Origin: Tissierellia bacterium
GTDB taxonomy: Bacteria > Bacillota > Clostridia > Tissierellales > Sedimentibacteraceae
Direction of reading: 5' to 3'
DNA length: 60,295 nucleotides
Assembly (NCBI GenBank): GCA_012520455.1
Contig: JAAYOE010000186.1
Coordinates: forward strand, 1 to 60,295
Shown here: piece by piece, positions 13,707 through 20,331 of the stretch
Layout: every line of letters begins with the position of its first letter
Numbering within the stretch: the stretch's first letter is position 1
Made by a program: the position numbers and the translations under genes
Notes under the pieces: model-generated
Databases searched by the model: none
Told to the model about the DNA's origin: nothing
What the model saw: only the letters and a program-made list of their open reading frames with translations

Positions 13707-13734
13707 CGGGATGACAAGGGTCATCCCGATTTTT
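13707..13734 (+). terminator. intrinsic terminator after pyrR
   Basis: CGGGATGAC-AAGG-GTCATCCCG followed by ATTTTT. Confidence 0.85.
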
Positions 13735-13750: not shown

Positions 13751-13779
13751 TTGATTATTCTGTCGAAAAATGATAGAAT
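13751..13779 (+). promoter_or_regulatory. candidate sigma-A-type promoter of the two-gene NTPase/HEPN unit
   Basis: TTGATT - 17 nt - TAGAAT with TGA extended -10, about 75 nt before the ATG. Confidence 0.5.
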
Positions 13780-13851: not shown

Positions 13852-16800
13852 ATGAGTATAGGTTTATATTTTAAAAATGATGTTAAAGTAGACGAAAAGG
13901 TTAAGATTACTTTAAACAGCGGAGCAGTACATACCGGCAAAGTTATTTCATATGATGACAATATTGTGGTGATTGCGGCCAACGGACGACCAAAGCCAAT
14001 AAACTTCAACGGTATTGCCGATTATGAAATTATCGAAGACAATTTAAGCAATGACGGCGATGATTTAAATAAAACCCCCTTCCAAAAAGAAATAAAAGCT
14101 TCCATGGACTTTTTCAAAGGCATTGATATCAAGTACGAGTTTTCGGCAAGTGATTTCAGCAAAGAGCGAAAATCAGCCAAGGATAATATATCGGATGATT
14201 TTTTAAGCATTGAAAATTCATTTTTATATGCTGTCAAGCTGAAGGAAACAGACCCTAAATTCGGAAGAATGGACAGGATAATTGCGTCAATCAAGCATCT
14301 TCAGGAAAGCAGCGACATTGATTTCTATAACTATGCCTTAGGCGAAGTATACTTTGTATGCGGAAATTTTAAAGAAGCCGGGGACTATTACTATAAAGCC
14401 AAGAAATATATGCCTTCCGCAGCCATGTACCTAAAATGCGGCAATGATGAAGGTGCCATGAATGCGTCGGCAGCTGCTTGCTTAACTGCCGATAGTATTA
14501 GAGAAATTGAAAATGTCTTTAAGCTGATGGTCGTAAGTACGGAAAAGATTAAGGATATTTCTGTACTGAAAGAGTGTTTCAACAGGAAGAAAGATAATTT
14601 AAACAGTGAAAGTATTAAGCTTTTTACTGATGCCTTTGTTTACTTTTCATCCCTTTCAAAAATAAGCATCAATTGGCCTGATAACCTTACATATTATTCA
14701 CCTGACAATTTGCTTGCAATTATAAATCAAACGGCAGAAAGCAACAAGTACAAGAAAGATAATCTCTTGATTGATTTTATCAATGAGGAGATTGATAAAG
14801 CAAAGGATGCCGGTAATAAGAATGAGACCAATGAAATGCTGACCGGGAGGATAATCAGGTTCAATCCGTTAAACAACACCGGTTTTATTTCCACCTTCGT
14901 GGATTCTGTTTTTTTTCATATTTCCGAAGTTTGGGATGAAAATCTAAAAAACAAGATTTTAAGAGGTTCATATAAAGATATATATGTTGAATTCAGTTTA
15001 TCGGAACGTTTTAACAAAAAAAGAGGGACATACGGCAAGGTTGCCACAGGCATCCGTTTCAGCAAATCCATACCCGAAAAACCGCAAGCAGAGGCAAAGA
15101 AATTCTTGGGAACATCAAGGGAAGGATATATTAACTCTTACACTCCCAATAAAGAAATTGGTACCATTTATTCGGGAAAGGACGTATACAGCTTCCTGCT
15201 CAGGGGGGTGAGTGACAAGGCCTTGGCCGGAAAACTCTGTACCGACTATGATATTTCCGGAATCGAGGTAACTTTTGAGGCAAGGAAGCTTCCGGGCGGA
15301 AAGCTTGCAGCAGTGAATGTAAAGCCCAAAAACCCTATTCCTGAAGAAGTTCGCAAATCATATGAGACCTTTGCCCCTGTAATCGATAAAACCACATACA
15401 GGACCGAGAAAGAAGACTTATTGGACCCTGAAAAAAAGGAAAGCATTTTATTGTCACTGGTTAACAAGAATCCCAATAATGAGAAACATGTGGCCGATTT
15501 AATAACCTTTTATTTATCAACTGCAAATCAAGACCCGGATTCCATAAAAAAGGCCTTGAGGTTAGTCGAAAGACATAAGAGGTATTTTGAAGAGGAACGT
15601 GTATTCCTCCAGTATATACGAATATATGAAAAGGCAAAGGATTATGAGAAGCTTTTAAAGTATTATAATTTAGTAATTCAAAATACCGATGCCGTAAACA
15701 GAAAACTCCACTATTTAAATTTAAAGGCTGATATACTTTCAGATTCAAACAAGGGGTGTTTGGACTATGAAAAGGCCATAGAAACATATCAGGAGTGGAT
15801 AGCCGTAAAGAATAAAAACAAGGTATTGTTAGGAATTAAGGACGATTATACGGGATCTTACGCATCGATTGAATTAAACATCAAGAGAAGGTTAGCCGTT
15901 TGCTATCTGAATCAAAACAATGAAAAGGCAGCAAAGGAGATAGCCTCCGAAATTTTATCCCATAATCCGGCAGACCAAATAGCCGCCGGCATTATCCAGG
16001 GTACATATTATCCCAATAATTTGGAATCAGACCAGCAGCCGGAAGCAGATGACAGCGATTTGTACTACTATGATTTTGAATTGAATGACATCATGCAAAA
16101 CCGTCTGAGTAATTTTAAATTATCCGTTGTTTTTACCCACGTTAATGATTTGGAGGATGAGAAACTAAAGGGGACCATTTCGGTTGCAAGGACCAAGGTC
16201 AGAAAGTTAGAAGACAGTTTAAACACCTTGAATACACAAAGACCTAAGGACTACAGAAACACCTGCCTGGCAATTGCCAAAATAATTGACCAGTATATGT
16301 CCAAGGATACGGAGAAGGATGGTTTATTCAACAAAAAATCCCGATTTGAATACATGATAAGAAGCTTGGTTGCCGAAGGAGACCTGTCGGTTAAAACCGA
16401 GGAAGTACCTATTGACGCGGCAAGATACTTGTATCTGGAATCAAGTGCAGAGATTGAACAGCTGAACCAGCAGCTCTATATTAACGCTTACGTCCGATAC
16501 TTGGTATCCTTCTTCGTAGAAAGAAAGGATATTCCCATCGGTGTGACAAAAACCGGGGTAAACCTGAATCCGACAACCCCCTTAAGCTATTTTTCCAAGT
16601 ACGGCTTAAATGAAAACCCGGTAAACTTTGTAAATGCATGCACCATGCTCTTTATTAAAAAGAATAACTTAATAAACCAAATATGCCAGCAGATTTGCGA
16701 ATCAAAGAATCAGGAATTAATATCTTCCATAATAGAAGTTTTTCAAGCTGCCTTAGGAATCGACAATATAGAAAATATAAACACCAAGAGTCTCGAAGAC

Positions 16801-18783
16801 CTTTGGAGCAAATATATATTTTGGTTTAAGCAGAAGCTGCAGGATTTCAAGCAGGCGGTAAAGGAAATTGATAAGATTGAATTTTCGACATTTTGGTTAG
16901 AACACAACATTGAAAAATTAGAGCAATACTTAAGATACAATATAATTTTGGCTAAAGACAATGAGCGGATGAAGGAAGTGATAGGGCTTTTAAACATTGC
17001 AAACCGCTTTGTTACGGATAAGGACTTTGATAACAGGGAAACTGCCCTGAGGGATATAATCAGAAAGGGCCGGAGCTTGGAAAAGGATATATTTGAATCC
17101 CCGACCCCCTTTGCCTTTGATACCGTAAGACAAATCCTGCCTGAAATATGCAGTGTGGCAGAAAGGAAGCTCATTGAGTTATTTGTAGCTTATAAGCCGG
17201 AATTATCGGTTGAAATCATAAACAGCAACACATTTTTGAACAACAGGGAATGTGAATTAAGGTTTGTTTTAAAAAACAAATTATATTGCCAGACGGTCAG
17301 GGAGATAGACATCAGTTCAGCAACCCACACAACTTGCATAACTCGGGACATCAACAAGGATTATGTCAAGGGGGGAAATGATGAAACTTTGATTATTGCC
17401 GTTAAACCCACGGCTGACCAGATCAGCAGGAAGGCCTTCCAGTTCAATCTGACCATAAAGTATAAGTATATGGTATCCCCGGATGATACCATAGAGGACT
17501 GCCTGAGCGAAGACTTTTCAATTAACTTGTTCAAGGAAGCTGATTTTATTGAAATTAATAACCCCTACAGCGCCATAGACACAAGCGGTGAAGTCAGGGA
17601 TAAAAATATGTTTTTTGGTAGGGATGAATTTATAGCCGGTATTGTAAATAACTTGAGAAACAAGGACAATACCCTGCTCAGATCCAAATGCATAGCCTTG
17701 TTCGGCCAAAAGAGGGCAGGCAAGTCATCTATTTTATACCACTTGGAAAACAAGATTAAGTCTGCCTATAAGAATTCCATCGTGATAAAGTTAGGCAACA
17801 TCCAAAACATTCTGAGCGGCAACGACAGCAAATCGGTAATTATCAGCTTCAGACACAGGATACTCACCCTGTTGAACGAAAAATTGGAGGACCATTTTCC
17901 CGAGCTTTTAGAAAAGATGGAAGCAAGCAATATTTCCTTCCCGACAATCGGGGAATTGACCAGTGAAATAGGCCCCAGCTTATTTATAAGCTTTTTCGAA
18001 AACTTCAATAAAAAGGTGATTAACAAGGACTACAACATAGTGATATTGATAGATGAATTCACCTATGTTTACGGAGAAATAAAGAAGGGGAGGCTGGATT
18101 ATACCTTCATGCAGCTGTGGAAGGCCATGATACAGGACCTGGAATTTGTCGGTATTTTAGTAGGACAAGACTACATGGAAAAATTCATTAATGATTTTGC
18201 CAATCCCTTCGGCACAGTCAAGAAAGAAAGGGTAACCTATTTATCCCGTGAAAGCACCAAGGAATTATGCGAGGTACCCATTCAAATAATCCATGAGAAC
18301 GGAGAAAGGGAATCCAGGTACAAGGACGAAAAAGCCTTTGAAAGAATCTGGCAGGCGACGGCCGGGAGCGCTTTTTACACGGTGAAAATCTGCAGTGCCC
18401 TTGTAAATTATCTAAATGATAAAAAATCTCCCTATATAGTTGAGGCTGACATCAAGAATGTCATCAACAACATACTTCTGCAGGATAACGGAAGGCTGTC
18501 GGAATCCGAATTTGATGCCTTGTTTAATGACGAGGGCGATATAGAAGATAAGGCAAAAAAGGATGACAACATAAAAATTCTCAAGAAAATTGCCCAGATG
18601 TCACAGAAGGATGATTATTGCCTGAGAAGCGATATTGTTTGCGATTTGCCCCAAGAGAGGGTGGATATGCTGCTCCAGCTTTTATGTGACAGGGACGTAT
18701 TGGAGCAAAAAGAAAACAAGTACAAGATTAAGGTAGGCTTGTACAAGGATTGGCTGATTAAAAGATACGGAGGTAACAACTGA
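13852..18783 (+). CDS. giant multidomain protein: Sm/SH3-like N-term, cold-shock-like OB domains, TPR-like helices, STAND/AAA NTPase, C-terminal winged helix
   Basis: 1643-aa ORF; NTGFISTFVDSVFFHISEV CSD-like (14836-15063); second OB-like segment (15121-15333); Walker A FGQKRAGKSS at 17701; Walker B NIVILIDEF at 18034; C-term wHTH-like VDMLLQLLCDRDVLEQKENKYKIKVGLYKDWLIKRYG. Confidence 0.8.
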   Translation: MSIGLYFKNDVKVDEKVKITLNSGAVHTGKVISYDDNIVVIAANGRPKPINFNGIADYEIIEDNLSNDGDDLNKTPFQKEIKASMDFFKGIDIKYEFSASDFSKERKSAKDNISDDFLSIENSFLYAVKLKETDPKFGRMDRIIASIKHLQESSDIDFYNYALGEVYFVCGNFKEAGDYYYKAKKYMPSAAMYLKCGNDEGAMNASAAACLTADSIREIENVFKLMVVSTEKIKDISVLKECFNRKKDNLNSESIKLFTDAFVYFSSLSKISINWPDNLTYYSPDNLLAIINQTAESNKYKKDNLLIDFINEEIDKAKDAGNKNETNEMLTGRIIRFNPLNNTGFISTFVDSVFFHISEVWDENLKNKILRGSYKDIYVEFSLSERFNKKRGTYGKVATGIRFSKSIPEKPQAEAKKFLGTSREGYINSYTPNKEIGTIYSGKDVYSFLLRGVSDKALAGKLCTDYDISGIEVTFEARKLPGGKLAAVNVKPKNPIPEEVRKSYETFAPVIDKTTYRTEKEDLLDPEKKESILLSLVNKNPNNEKHVADLITFYLSTANQDPDSIKKALRLVERHKRYFEEERVFLQYIRIYEKAKDYEKLLKYYNLVIQNTDAVNRKLHYLNLKADILSDSNKGCLDYEKAIETYQEWIAVKNKNKVLLGIKDDYTGSYASIELNIKRRLAVCYLNQNNEKAAKEIASEILSHNPADQIAAGIIQGTYYPNNLESDQQPEADDSDLYYYDFELNDIMQNRLSNFKLSVVFTHVNDLEDEKLKGTISVARTKVRKLEDSLNTLNTQRPKDYRNTCLAIAKIIDQYMSKDTEKDGLFNKKSRFEYMIRSLVAEGDLSVKTEEVPIDAARYLYLESSAEIEQLNQQLYINAYVRYLVSFFVERKDIPIGVTKTGVNLNPTTPLSYFSKYGLNENPVNFVNACTMLFIKKNNLINQICQQICESKNQELISSIIEVFQAALGIDNIENINTKSLEDLWSKYIFWFKQKLQDFKQAVKEIDKIEFSTFWLEHNIEKLEQYLRYNIILAKDNERMKEVIGLLNIANRFVTDKDFDNRETALRDIIRKGRSLEKDIFESPTPFAFDTVRQILPEICSVAERKLIELFVAYKPELSVEIINSNTFLNNRECELRFVLKNKLYCQTVREIDISSATHTTCITRDINKDYVKGGNDETLIIAVKPTADQISRKAFQFNLTIKYKYMVSPDDTIEDCLSEDFSINLFKEADFIEINNPYSAIDTSGEVRDKNMFFGRDEFIAGIVNNLRNKDNTLLRSKCIALFGQKRAGKSSILYHLENKIKSAYKNSIVIKLGNIQNILSGNDSKSVIISFRHRILTLLNEKLEDHFPELLEKMEASNISFPTIGELTSEIGPSLFISFFENFNKKVINKDYNIVILIDEFTYVYGEIKKGRLDYTFMQLWKAMIQDLEFVGILVGQDYMEKFINDFANPFGTVKKERVTYLSRESTKELCEVPIQIIHENGERESRYKDEKAFERIWQATAGSAFYTVKICSALVNYLNDKKSPYIVEADIKNVINNILLQDNGRLSESEFDALFNDEGDIEDKAKKDDNIKILKKIAQMSQKDDYCLRSDIVCDLPQERVDMLLQLLCDRDVLEQKENKYKIKVGLYKDWLIKRYGGNN

Positions 18784-20306
18784 TGGATAATCCTTTCATT
18801 GTTGGAGCAGAGGTTGAAGGAGAAAGCTTTATAGGGCGGAGGGACCAATTAAAGCAATTCAATGATTTATTGTATAAGAATGATTCGAAAAGCGGGAGCA
18901 TATCCTTAACGGGCATAACCAGGATAGGCAAAAGCTCCCTGATACGAAATGCCGTGAAACTTAACGAGAATAAAAACATAATAACGGTCAAGACGGTCAT
19001 AAGCAAGTTTTCAGATTTTAACGAATTCTGGACAGATGTATTATCCTTGGTGAGGGATGAACTGGAATTTGTCGAAGGCAACTATTTTAAGGAAATCAAT
19101 GCTCTTGATGCAGCTATTGATGCCGGCACCAATGATACCTATAATTTCAGGAGGAAGGTAGAAAAGGCATTTAAGCTGATATCCAAACAATTAAAGCTGG
19201 TGATAGTGATCGATGAGTTTGATTTTGCGGAATATGTCTTTGGATCCGACTCTTCCAACTTTCAGTTTTTCCGTGAATTAATATCCTCGGCGGACTATAA
19301 GATGACCTTTATAACAATTTCAAGGCGGAGCTTGATTCACATTGAGACAAGGTCCTTCGGAGGCTCGACTTTAGACGGAGTATTTAAAAAGATTAGCCTC
19401 AGGGGATTTTCAAATGAAGATTTGCAGGAATATTTCAATAAGTTCGACAGCCTGCAGATAAAATTGAGCGATGACATAAAGAAAAAGATTTTGTATTATG
19501 GGGGCAGGTCTCCTTACCTTTTATCTGCAATCGGACAGGAAATAGTATACAGGCAGGGGGCTGATGATTTTGATTCCGTCCTTTCCGCATGCAATCAACA
19601 ATTTTTGGATTACTTCAAGAGGATAGTAGAGTTGTTAAAGGATGAAGATTTCTATAACAAGCTTTTGCAGATCTATATCGGGCCCAGATACAATATAAAA
19701 CAATATGATATAGATGAGCTTGTATCAAGAGGTTATATTTCCAACAAGATAAAAGGGTTTTATGATACCGGCGAAGATAATATAGATGAATTCAAGTATG
19801 AAACCATATCAGAATATTTTGTTGAGTACCTCATGGATATATCCCAGCCGGAAGTAGGAGAGATTTGGCCTGTTTTGTCCGAAGCCGAGAAGAAGTTAAG
19901 GTCAATCATTGAAATAGAACTGACCGGCATGTTTGGCGGAAGGTGGATGGAAGAGCTTGAAAGAGTAAACCAGGAATACAAGAAGAACAAAAGGACCTTT
20001 ATTGATTTTGATAAGGTTAATATAAACTTAGCAGTCAACAAGAAAAAGTATAAGGAAAGGGCAAGCGATAATATCCTGACCACGGTAGGCATCATGGAAT
20101 TAAGAAACATCCTCCAGCATTACTGGACAAGGTTTGCGCCATATTTTAACAATGACCAATTTTCTAAATGGTCTGACAGGTTTTATTTATTACATAAGGC
20201 AAGAAATCCCTTGGCTCACAATACGGCTGAGTTTTTGACGGAAGAGGAAATTATGGAAACAGAACTTTACTGCCGTGAAATAATATCATCCATTGCTAAG
20301 AAATAA
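18783..20306 (+). CDS. STAND/AAA-type NTPase with C-terminal HEPN (Swt1-like) domain
   Basis: NPFIVGAEVEGESFIGRRDQL; Walker A GITRIGKSS (18912); Walker B LVIVIDEFDF; C-term YLLHKARNPLAHN R-x4-H motif (20202); TGATG overlap with upstream gene. Confidence 0.8.
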   Translation: MDNPFIVGAEVEGESFIGRRDQLKQFNDLLYKNDSKSGSISLTGITRIGKSSLIRNAVKLNENKNIITVKTVISKFSDFNEFWTDVLSLVRDELEFVEGNYFKEINALDAAIDAGTNDTYNFRRKVEKAFKLISKQLKLVIVIDEFDFAEYVFGSDSSNFQFFRELISSADYKMTFITISRRSLIHIETRSFGGSTLDGVFKKISLRGFSNEDLQEYFNKFDSLQIKLSDDIKKKILYYGGRSPYLLSAIGQEIVYRQGADDFDSVLSACNQQFLDYFKRIVELLKDEDFYNKLLQIYIGPRYNIKQYDIDELVSRGYISNKIKGFYDTGEDNIDEFKYETISEYFVEYLMDISQPEVGEIWPVLSEAEKKLRSIIEIELTGMFGGRWMEELERVNQEYKKNKRTFIDFDKVNINLAVNKKKYKERASDNILTTVGIMELRNILQHYWTRFAPYFNNDQFSKWSDRFYLLHKARNPLAHNTAEFLTEEEIMETELYCREIISSIAKK

Positions 20307-20310
20307 AAAC

Positions 20311-20331
20311 CGGGGACGGATACCGTCCCCG
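20311..20331. terminator. terminator hairpin between the convergent NTPase/HEPN unit and rqcH
   Basis: CGGGGACGG-ATA-CCGTCCCCG, flanked by an A-rich tract (T-rich on the - strand). Confidence 0.8.

Follow-up and report, generated by a model that had tools for sequence, protein, structure and literature searches.

A two-gene STAND and STAND-HEPN locus with tandem cold-shock-like domains in a Tissierellia bacterium

Antiphage STAND proteins such as Avs carry an effector, a STAND NTPase and a sensor, in that order, on a single chain. To our knowledge, wherever the trigger of an antiphage STAND has been worked out (Avs), it is a phage protein. Cold-shock domains (CSDs) are listed among the RNA-binding domains of NTP-dependent conflict systems (PMC7159879), and a 2013 paper noted bacterial proteins that combine HEPN and STAND domains, in some cases together with OB domains of cold-shock type (Anantharaman et al., 2013; PMC3710099). 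CoCoNuT type IV restriction systems likewise couple CSDs, an NTPase and HEPN domains, and are predicted to target RNA (PMC11090510). In canonical CSDs, RNA is contacted through the Y/FGF and FFHF motifs; in Unr, CSDs of the non-canonical type have no RNA binding of their own, and space and orient the neighbouring CSD instead (PMC7383231).

As in the proteins reported by Anantharaman et al. (2013), HEPN, STAND NTPase and cold-shock-like OB domains occur together in the pair of adjacent genes described here. The pair lies within a stretch of 60,295 nucleotides (the window; contig JAAYOE010000186.1) from a Tissierellia bacterium, and has close orthologues at two other loci (L006 and L005). An earlier note on this DNA had placed tandem cold-shock-like OB domains, embedded in a STAND NTPase, at 14836-15333. 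Both the frame and the coordinates were right, the span corresponding to amino acids (aa) 329-494 of a 1643-aa open reading frame.

Tandem cold-shock domains in the large STAND protein

The layout of the large protein is as follows.

13852-18783, plus strand: large STAND protein, 1643 aa (open reading frame; orthologues in L006, 87 % identity, and L005)
13852-14037, plus strand: small beta-barrel, aa 1-62, probably Sm/Hfq-like (weak profile matches, below cut-off)
14038-14835, plus strand: helical region with TPR-like repeat, aa 63-328 (TPR_1/TPR_2, E 0.02; TPR_14 in L006, E 0.001)
14836-15063, plus strand: CSD1, putative near-canonical cold-shock domain, aa 329-404 (PF00313, AlphaFold2 OB topology, Foldseek)
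14878-14895, plus strand: RNP1-like motif TGFIST of CSD1, aa 343-348 (same in the window and L006)
14911-14925, plus strand: RNP2-like motif FFHIS of CSD1, aa 354-358 (same in the window and L006)
15112-15333, plus strand: CSD2, predicted non-canonical cold-shock/OB domain lacking RNP motifs, aa 421-494 (AlphaFold2, hhalign, retron_eff_Se72)
15439-16056, plus strand: TPR region, aa 530-735 (TPR_14, E 3.4e-5)
17182-17571, plus strand: probable beta-sandwich N-terminal to the NTPase, aa 1111-1240 (from the sequence pattern)
17593-18780, plus strand: STAND NTPase and C-terminal helical part, aa 1248-1643 (GQKRAGKSS, VILIDEF; profiles below cut-off)

When isolated CSD1 is searched against PF00313, the window sequence gives E=0.0018 (18.5 bits, below the gathering score of 27.0) and the orthologous segment of L006 gives E=3.7e-6 (27.1 bits), which reaches that score. 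Whole-protein scans with PF00313 give weaker matches to CSD1 (0.1 in the window, 2.4e-4 in L006). There is also a weak match between L006 CSD1 and the cold-shock-like NCBIfam model retron_eff_Se72 (NF038236; E 0.015), and sequence-profile searches of the PDB returned marginal CSD matches only (E 0.2 and above). Compared with the canonical RNP1 ([Y/F]GF) and RNP2 (FFHF), CSD1 has TGF and FFHI; the motifs are partly kept, with T in place of the first RNP aromatic. These RNP-type residues are invariant between the window and L006, despite differences at 23 of the 76 positions of CSD1 (p about 0.02). Judged by its sequence, with FFH and GF kept, CSD1 is a near-canonical CSD; the earlier note had already matched this first segment to the CSD pattern.

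The second segment had been described as a degenerate OB domain or CSD. It has no match in a Pfam scan and no CSD match in a sequence-profile search of the PDB. At the positions of the RNP motifs it reads IGT and YSF, both RNA-contact motifs being missing. A full-length but weak match to retron_eff_Se72 was found (E 0.0099). CSD2 and CSD1 align collinearly with hhalign at P 4e-4 to 3e-3, a score equalled in 3 of 1000 column shuffles. In the control, however, a stretch near aa 731-810 that is unrelated scores about as well as CSD2, and the alignments, with two or three rows each, are too shallow for strong profile statistics. A three-row CSD profile identified no further convincing CSD tandem in 320 genomes.

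In an AlphaFold2 model spanning aa 1-520, CSD1 and CSD2 each have the OB strand order b1-b2-b3-helix-b4-b5. The predicted CSD1 strands are at 329-338, 343-348, 354-357, 378-383, and 397-403 (core pLDDT 50-64), and those of CSD2 at 422-431, 436-441, 444-449, 472-479, and 485-492, with the helix at 456-464 (pLDDT about 70-80). In a Foldseek search of the PDB, the first two places go to tandem-CSD fragments of Unr, namely CSD1-2 (6Y6M, E 1.7e-4) and CSD7-8 (6Y4H, E 2.3e-4). Single CSDs are matched at target TM-scores of about 0.7-0.8 (CspA 0.79); TM-scores across the whole pair of domains are low because their relative placing differs or is not predicted. The predicted fold of CSD2 fits a CSD of the non-canonical type. 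Profile search and structure prediction, two of the checks named in the earlier note, have returned OB/CSD similarity and a predicted five-stranded OB barrel, supporting tandem CSDs within a STAND protein.

Upstream of the tandem, aa 1-62 matches several Pfam families, all below cut-off (Hfq, 0.03; Hfq_1, 0.06; LSM, 0.06; DUF2097, 0.003). The best of these is DUF2097 of archaea. Matches of this region to PDB profiles include Sm/SH3-type barrels amid other weak, mostly unrelated matches, and it is possibly a third nucleic-acid-type barrel of the large protein. Downstream, no match was found for aa 1111-1240 in a Pfam scan. The STAND-type NTPase occupies the C-terminal ~395 aa, with Walker A (GQKRAGKSS) and Walker B (VILIDEF) present; its matches to nSTAND1 (E 6e-4) and ATPase_2 (E 1e-3) fall short of the cut-offs. 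It has distant relatives in two genomes, G106 and G307; the G307 protein, of similar size, passes the ATPase_2 cut-off (43.7 against 33.2 bits).

The partner gene and the pyrR-rqcH locus

The large gene is followed by a second STAND gene, and the two sit between pyrR and rqcH with signals of their own.

13707-13728, plus strand: terminator-like hairpin between pyrR and the pair
13751-13779, plus strand: promoter-like site for the pair, TTGATT-17-TAGAAT with TG before the -10 (consensus match only)
18783-20306, plus strand: partner, 507 aa, STAND NTPase and HEPN (AAA_16, E 2.5e-10)
19851-20303, plus strand: Swt1-like HEPN of the partner, aa 357-507 (HEPN_Swt1, 4.5e-5)
20202-20219, plus strand: HEPN Rx4H motif RNPLAH, aa 474-479 (same in all three orthologues)
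20311-20331, plus strand: hairpin resembling a terminator, between the pair and rqcH and usable from either side

The genes form an operon, in which the stop of the large gene and the start of the partner overlap by one base (TGATG) and a Shine-Dalgarno sequence (GGAGG) lies within the 3' end of the large gene. The partner reaches the AAA_16 cut-off (41.6 bits, cut-off 32.6). Its match to HEPN_Swt1 (PF18731; E 4.5e-5, 1.4e-5 in L006) scores 24.1-25.8 bits against a cut-off of 27.5, and matches to HEPN_SAV2148 and HEPN_Apea are weaker. RNPLAH conforms to the HEPN Rx4-6H pattern, with a polar residue after R. The AlphaFold2 model of the HEPN region is all-helical and, with a pLDDT of 53, too poor to confirm the fold; Foldseek against the PDB gave no significant match. 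The partner is probably an RNA cutter, and the presence of this adjacent STAND-HEPN gene, absent from the earlier note, makes an RNA-centred role more likely. In PADLOC, the partner matches only the candidate models PDC-M34B (3e-8) and PDC-S27, the large protein has no match, and there is no system-level match to a known antiphage system.

Large and small genes co-occur, being found in exactly the same three of 61 genomes searched (3 of 25 within the genus). At 12 of 17 congeneric loci fetched, pyrR lies near rqcH with no pair (one pyrR is truncated); at the remaining five, pyrR is outside the fetched stretch. In six of the 12 pair-free loci (L045, L053, L054, L056, L057, and L061) the gap from pyrR to rqcH measures just 35-103 bp. 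Within this conserved synteny, the two genes are an autonomous accessory insertion, unless the pair has instead been lost repeatedly.

Other genes are found in the same gap. In L055 (5867-6516), from another member of the genus, there is a HicA/HicB toxin-antitoxin pair (HicA, 5.4e-10; HicB, 1.6e-8), therefore this spot takes up different accessory genes. In another congener (L046:5634-6989) the gap encodes a member of the ThiF family (E 1.6e-74), about 450 aa long.

The chromosomal neighbours of the pair are the housekeeping genes pyrR, rqcH, and yicC, there is no defence island in its surroundings, and no copy was found in the plasmid, phage, and viral collections searched. Prophage cargo was rejected on the grounds of these neighbours and the absence of phage, plasmid, and viral matches.

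Within the class, the distant large protein of G106 adjoins a 439-aa STAND. The distant pair of G307 (L011:233-7211) consists of a 1652-aa repeat-STAND protein and an adjoining 676-aa STAND ending in RNKCDH, a HEPN-like Rx4H in a protein with no Pfam HEPN match. There is no demonstrable CSD in the N-terminal halves of the large proteins of G106 and G307, and the N-terminal domains in G106 show no homology to the barrel or the CSDs above that of shuffles. What is conserved in the family is therefore a large STAND with a small one, the half bearing the CSDs being a variable module.

Evolutionary rates and loss of CSD1 in a close relative

Among the close orthologues, aa 1-495 have a dN/dS of about 0.11-0.20 and aa 530-1643 one of 0.02-0.05, against 0.05-0.08 for the partner, 0.03-0.04 for pyrR, and about 0.10 for rqcH. 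The N-terminal half, which bears the CSDs, changes about 3-4 times as fast as the STAND half. Purifying selection acts on all parts, with the N-terminal half freer to vary, and there is no sign of positive selection in the dN/dS of close orthologues. A fast N-terminal half suits a sensor.

In L005, from the UBA1065 metagenome-assembled genome, an in-frame deletion (L005:10943-11000) has taken most of CSD1, with about 70 aa lost. The last strand of CSD1 and all of CSD2 remain, the rest is conserved, and both genes are intact. G015 has the same sequence as L005 and adds no independent confirmation of the deletion. In L006, the short repeat TACTTA is present at both ends of the segment deleted in L005, compatible with slippage. 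CSD2 is the part of the tandem that is retained in all three copies.

Three explanations offer themselves: some trigger does not require CSD1, function has been lost in the L005 copy, or the assembly is wrong. With CSD1 deleted in a close relative, it cannot be the only trigger site everywhere, and because of this loss it is not taken here as a proven sensor. The suggestion in the earlier note that the sensor may read nucleic acid directly, as CSDs usually bind single-stranded RNA or DNA, is plausible, but it is qualified by the state of the motifs, of which FFH is kept in CSD1 alone and [Y/F]GF is TGF there, by the loss of CSD1 in L005, and by the other candidate trigger-binding parts. The N-terminal small barrel, the helical/TPR-like stretch, and the TPRs could each serve in this way.

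Interpretation and comparison with known systems

The pair is tentatively read, at somewhat less than an even chance, as a two-gene defence-type STAND/STAND-HEPN system with RNA-triggered action through CSD1. The variable N-terminal half, with a probable Sm-like barrel, helical/TPR-like stretch, and CSD tandem, would be an RNA-handling module, and the conserved C-terminal half would comprise the TPRs, a beta domain, and the STAND NTPase. CSD1 would grip single-stranded RNA that comes from an invader or arises when host RNA metabolism is disturbed, with CSD2 as a rigid spacer or scaffold, as in Unr. This grip, possibly combined with a protein cue at the TPRs, would release the NTPase for NTP-driven assembly with the partner STAND, and the HEPN RNase thus activated would cut host or phage RNA, stopping growth and possibly protecting against phage. 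The fuller proposal, of a bacterial STAND immune switch that is directly RNA-triggered via an Unr-like tandem of canonical and non-canonical CSDs and relays to a second STAND with a HEPN RNase, is unlikely.

The RNA-triggered reading is supported by the CSD fold seen with profiles, AlphaFold2 and Foldseek, by RNP-type residues unchanged between the window and L006, and by the intact Rx4H of the partner HEPN. It is also supported by the overlap and co-occurrence of the genes, by the similar pairing of a large STAND with an adjoining smaller one in G106 and G307, by an accessory insertion with its own terminator-like and promoter-like signals, by the contrast in dN/dS under purifying selection throughout, and by the precedents of the CoCoNuTs (PMC11090510) and the HEPN, STAND, and CSD proteins (PMC3710099). 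However, L005 lacks CSD1 and yet has both genes intact, the first RNP aromatic of CSD1 is T, and CSD2 has no RNP residues. With no demonstrable CSD in G106 and G307, the CSDs are therefore not core to the family. Phage, plasmid, or viral copies and a surrounding defence island are lacking, and the HEPN model is too poor to confirm the fold.

A serious alternative, though a doubtful one, is that the TPR and helical regions sense a protein, as in Avs and other STANDs, and that the CSD tandem serves as a scaffold or RNA tether, keeping the complex on RNA or presenting substrate to the HEPN RNase. The conservation of the remainder of L005 after deletion of CSD1 points this way, as do the retention in all three copies of CSD2, which has no RNA-binding motifs, the scaffold role of the Unr non-canonical CSDs (PMC7383231), and the different N-terminal halves of the distant relatives. 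On the other hand, the half with the CSDs and the helical region evolves fastest, as a sensing region would be expected to do, and the deletion is unconfirmed, L005 being a single metagenome assembly. It is improbable that the pair instead works for the host as an ATPase of regulation or of RNA quality control (MalT/AfsR-like, or an RNA-decay factor), with no part in defence. Strong purifying selection and a chromosomal site beside pyrR, rqcH, and yicC, with no mobile-element copies found, would agree with such a role, but 22 of 25 congeners lack the pair and many of them show an empty site, the pair has a HEPN effector, and a HicAB pair is at the same spot in L055. A superficial likeness to CSDs, by an unrelated small barrel at CSD1 and by chance at CSD2, is hardly credible: despite the sub-cut-off score of the window CSD1, the lack of a Pfam match for CSD2, the unclean hhalign control, and the pLDDT of CSD1, the L006 CSD1 is at the curated cut-off, FFH and GF are present, tandem-CSD fragments top the Foldseek results, and CSD2 matches the retron Se72 model.

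If the pair is switched by RNA, it would parallel animal RNA sensors and be a small, testable case of RNA-to-STAND-to-HEPN signalling. A tandem of canonical and non-canonical CSDs would carry the Unr idea of a pseudo-RNA-binding domain into a bacterial switch protein, and the part played by CSD1 can be tested directly, since a close relative carries a natural deletion of it.

Among known systems, Unr/CSDE1 (6Y6M, 6Y4H; PMC7383231) is the best Foldseek match and, like the large protein, has a canonical CSD followed by a non-canonical one lacking Y/FGF and FFHF; however, it is a eukaryotic translation regulator, and identity to the CSDs of the large protein is only 17 % in the Foldseek alignment. 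The cold-shock-like accessory protein of retron Se72 (NF038236) weakly matches both CSDs in sequence, but it belongs to a retron and stands alone. For the pair a retron was rejected, since no reverse transcriptase was recognised nearby. Avs/AVAST and other antiphage STANDs share with the large protein a STAND NTPase with a large repeat-containing sensor. In the pair, unlike Avs, the sensor-type half comes first, the STAND is C-terminal, and the effector is on a second STAND; there is no PADLOC match to Avs. CoCoNuTs have CSD-like OB folds, an NTPase, and HEPN nucleases, as does the pair, and some members have two CSDs (PMC11090510). Their NTPase is a McrB-type GTPase with McrC, whereas the pair has STAND NTPases and no long coiled coil was identified; a CoCoNuT was rejected, there being no McrB or McrC profile in either protein. 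The proteins of Anantharaman et al. (2013; PMC3710099) have an N-terminal HEPN and a C-terminal CSD in one chain, whereas the pair has two genes and two STANDs, with the CSDs upstream of the NTPase and the HEPN on the partner. No description of a layout with CSDs ahead of a STAND and HEPN on a second STAND was found in the literature searched, and the pair is a split, reversed-order variant of the HEPN, STAND, and CSD combinations noted in 2013.
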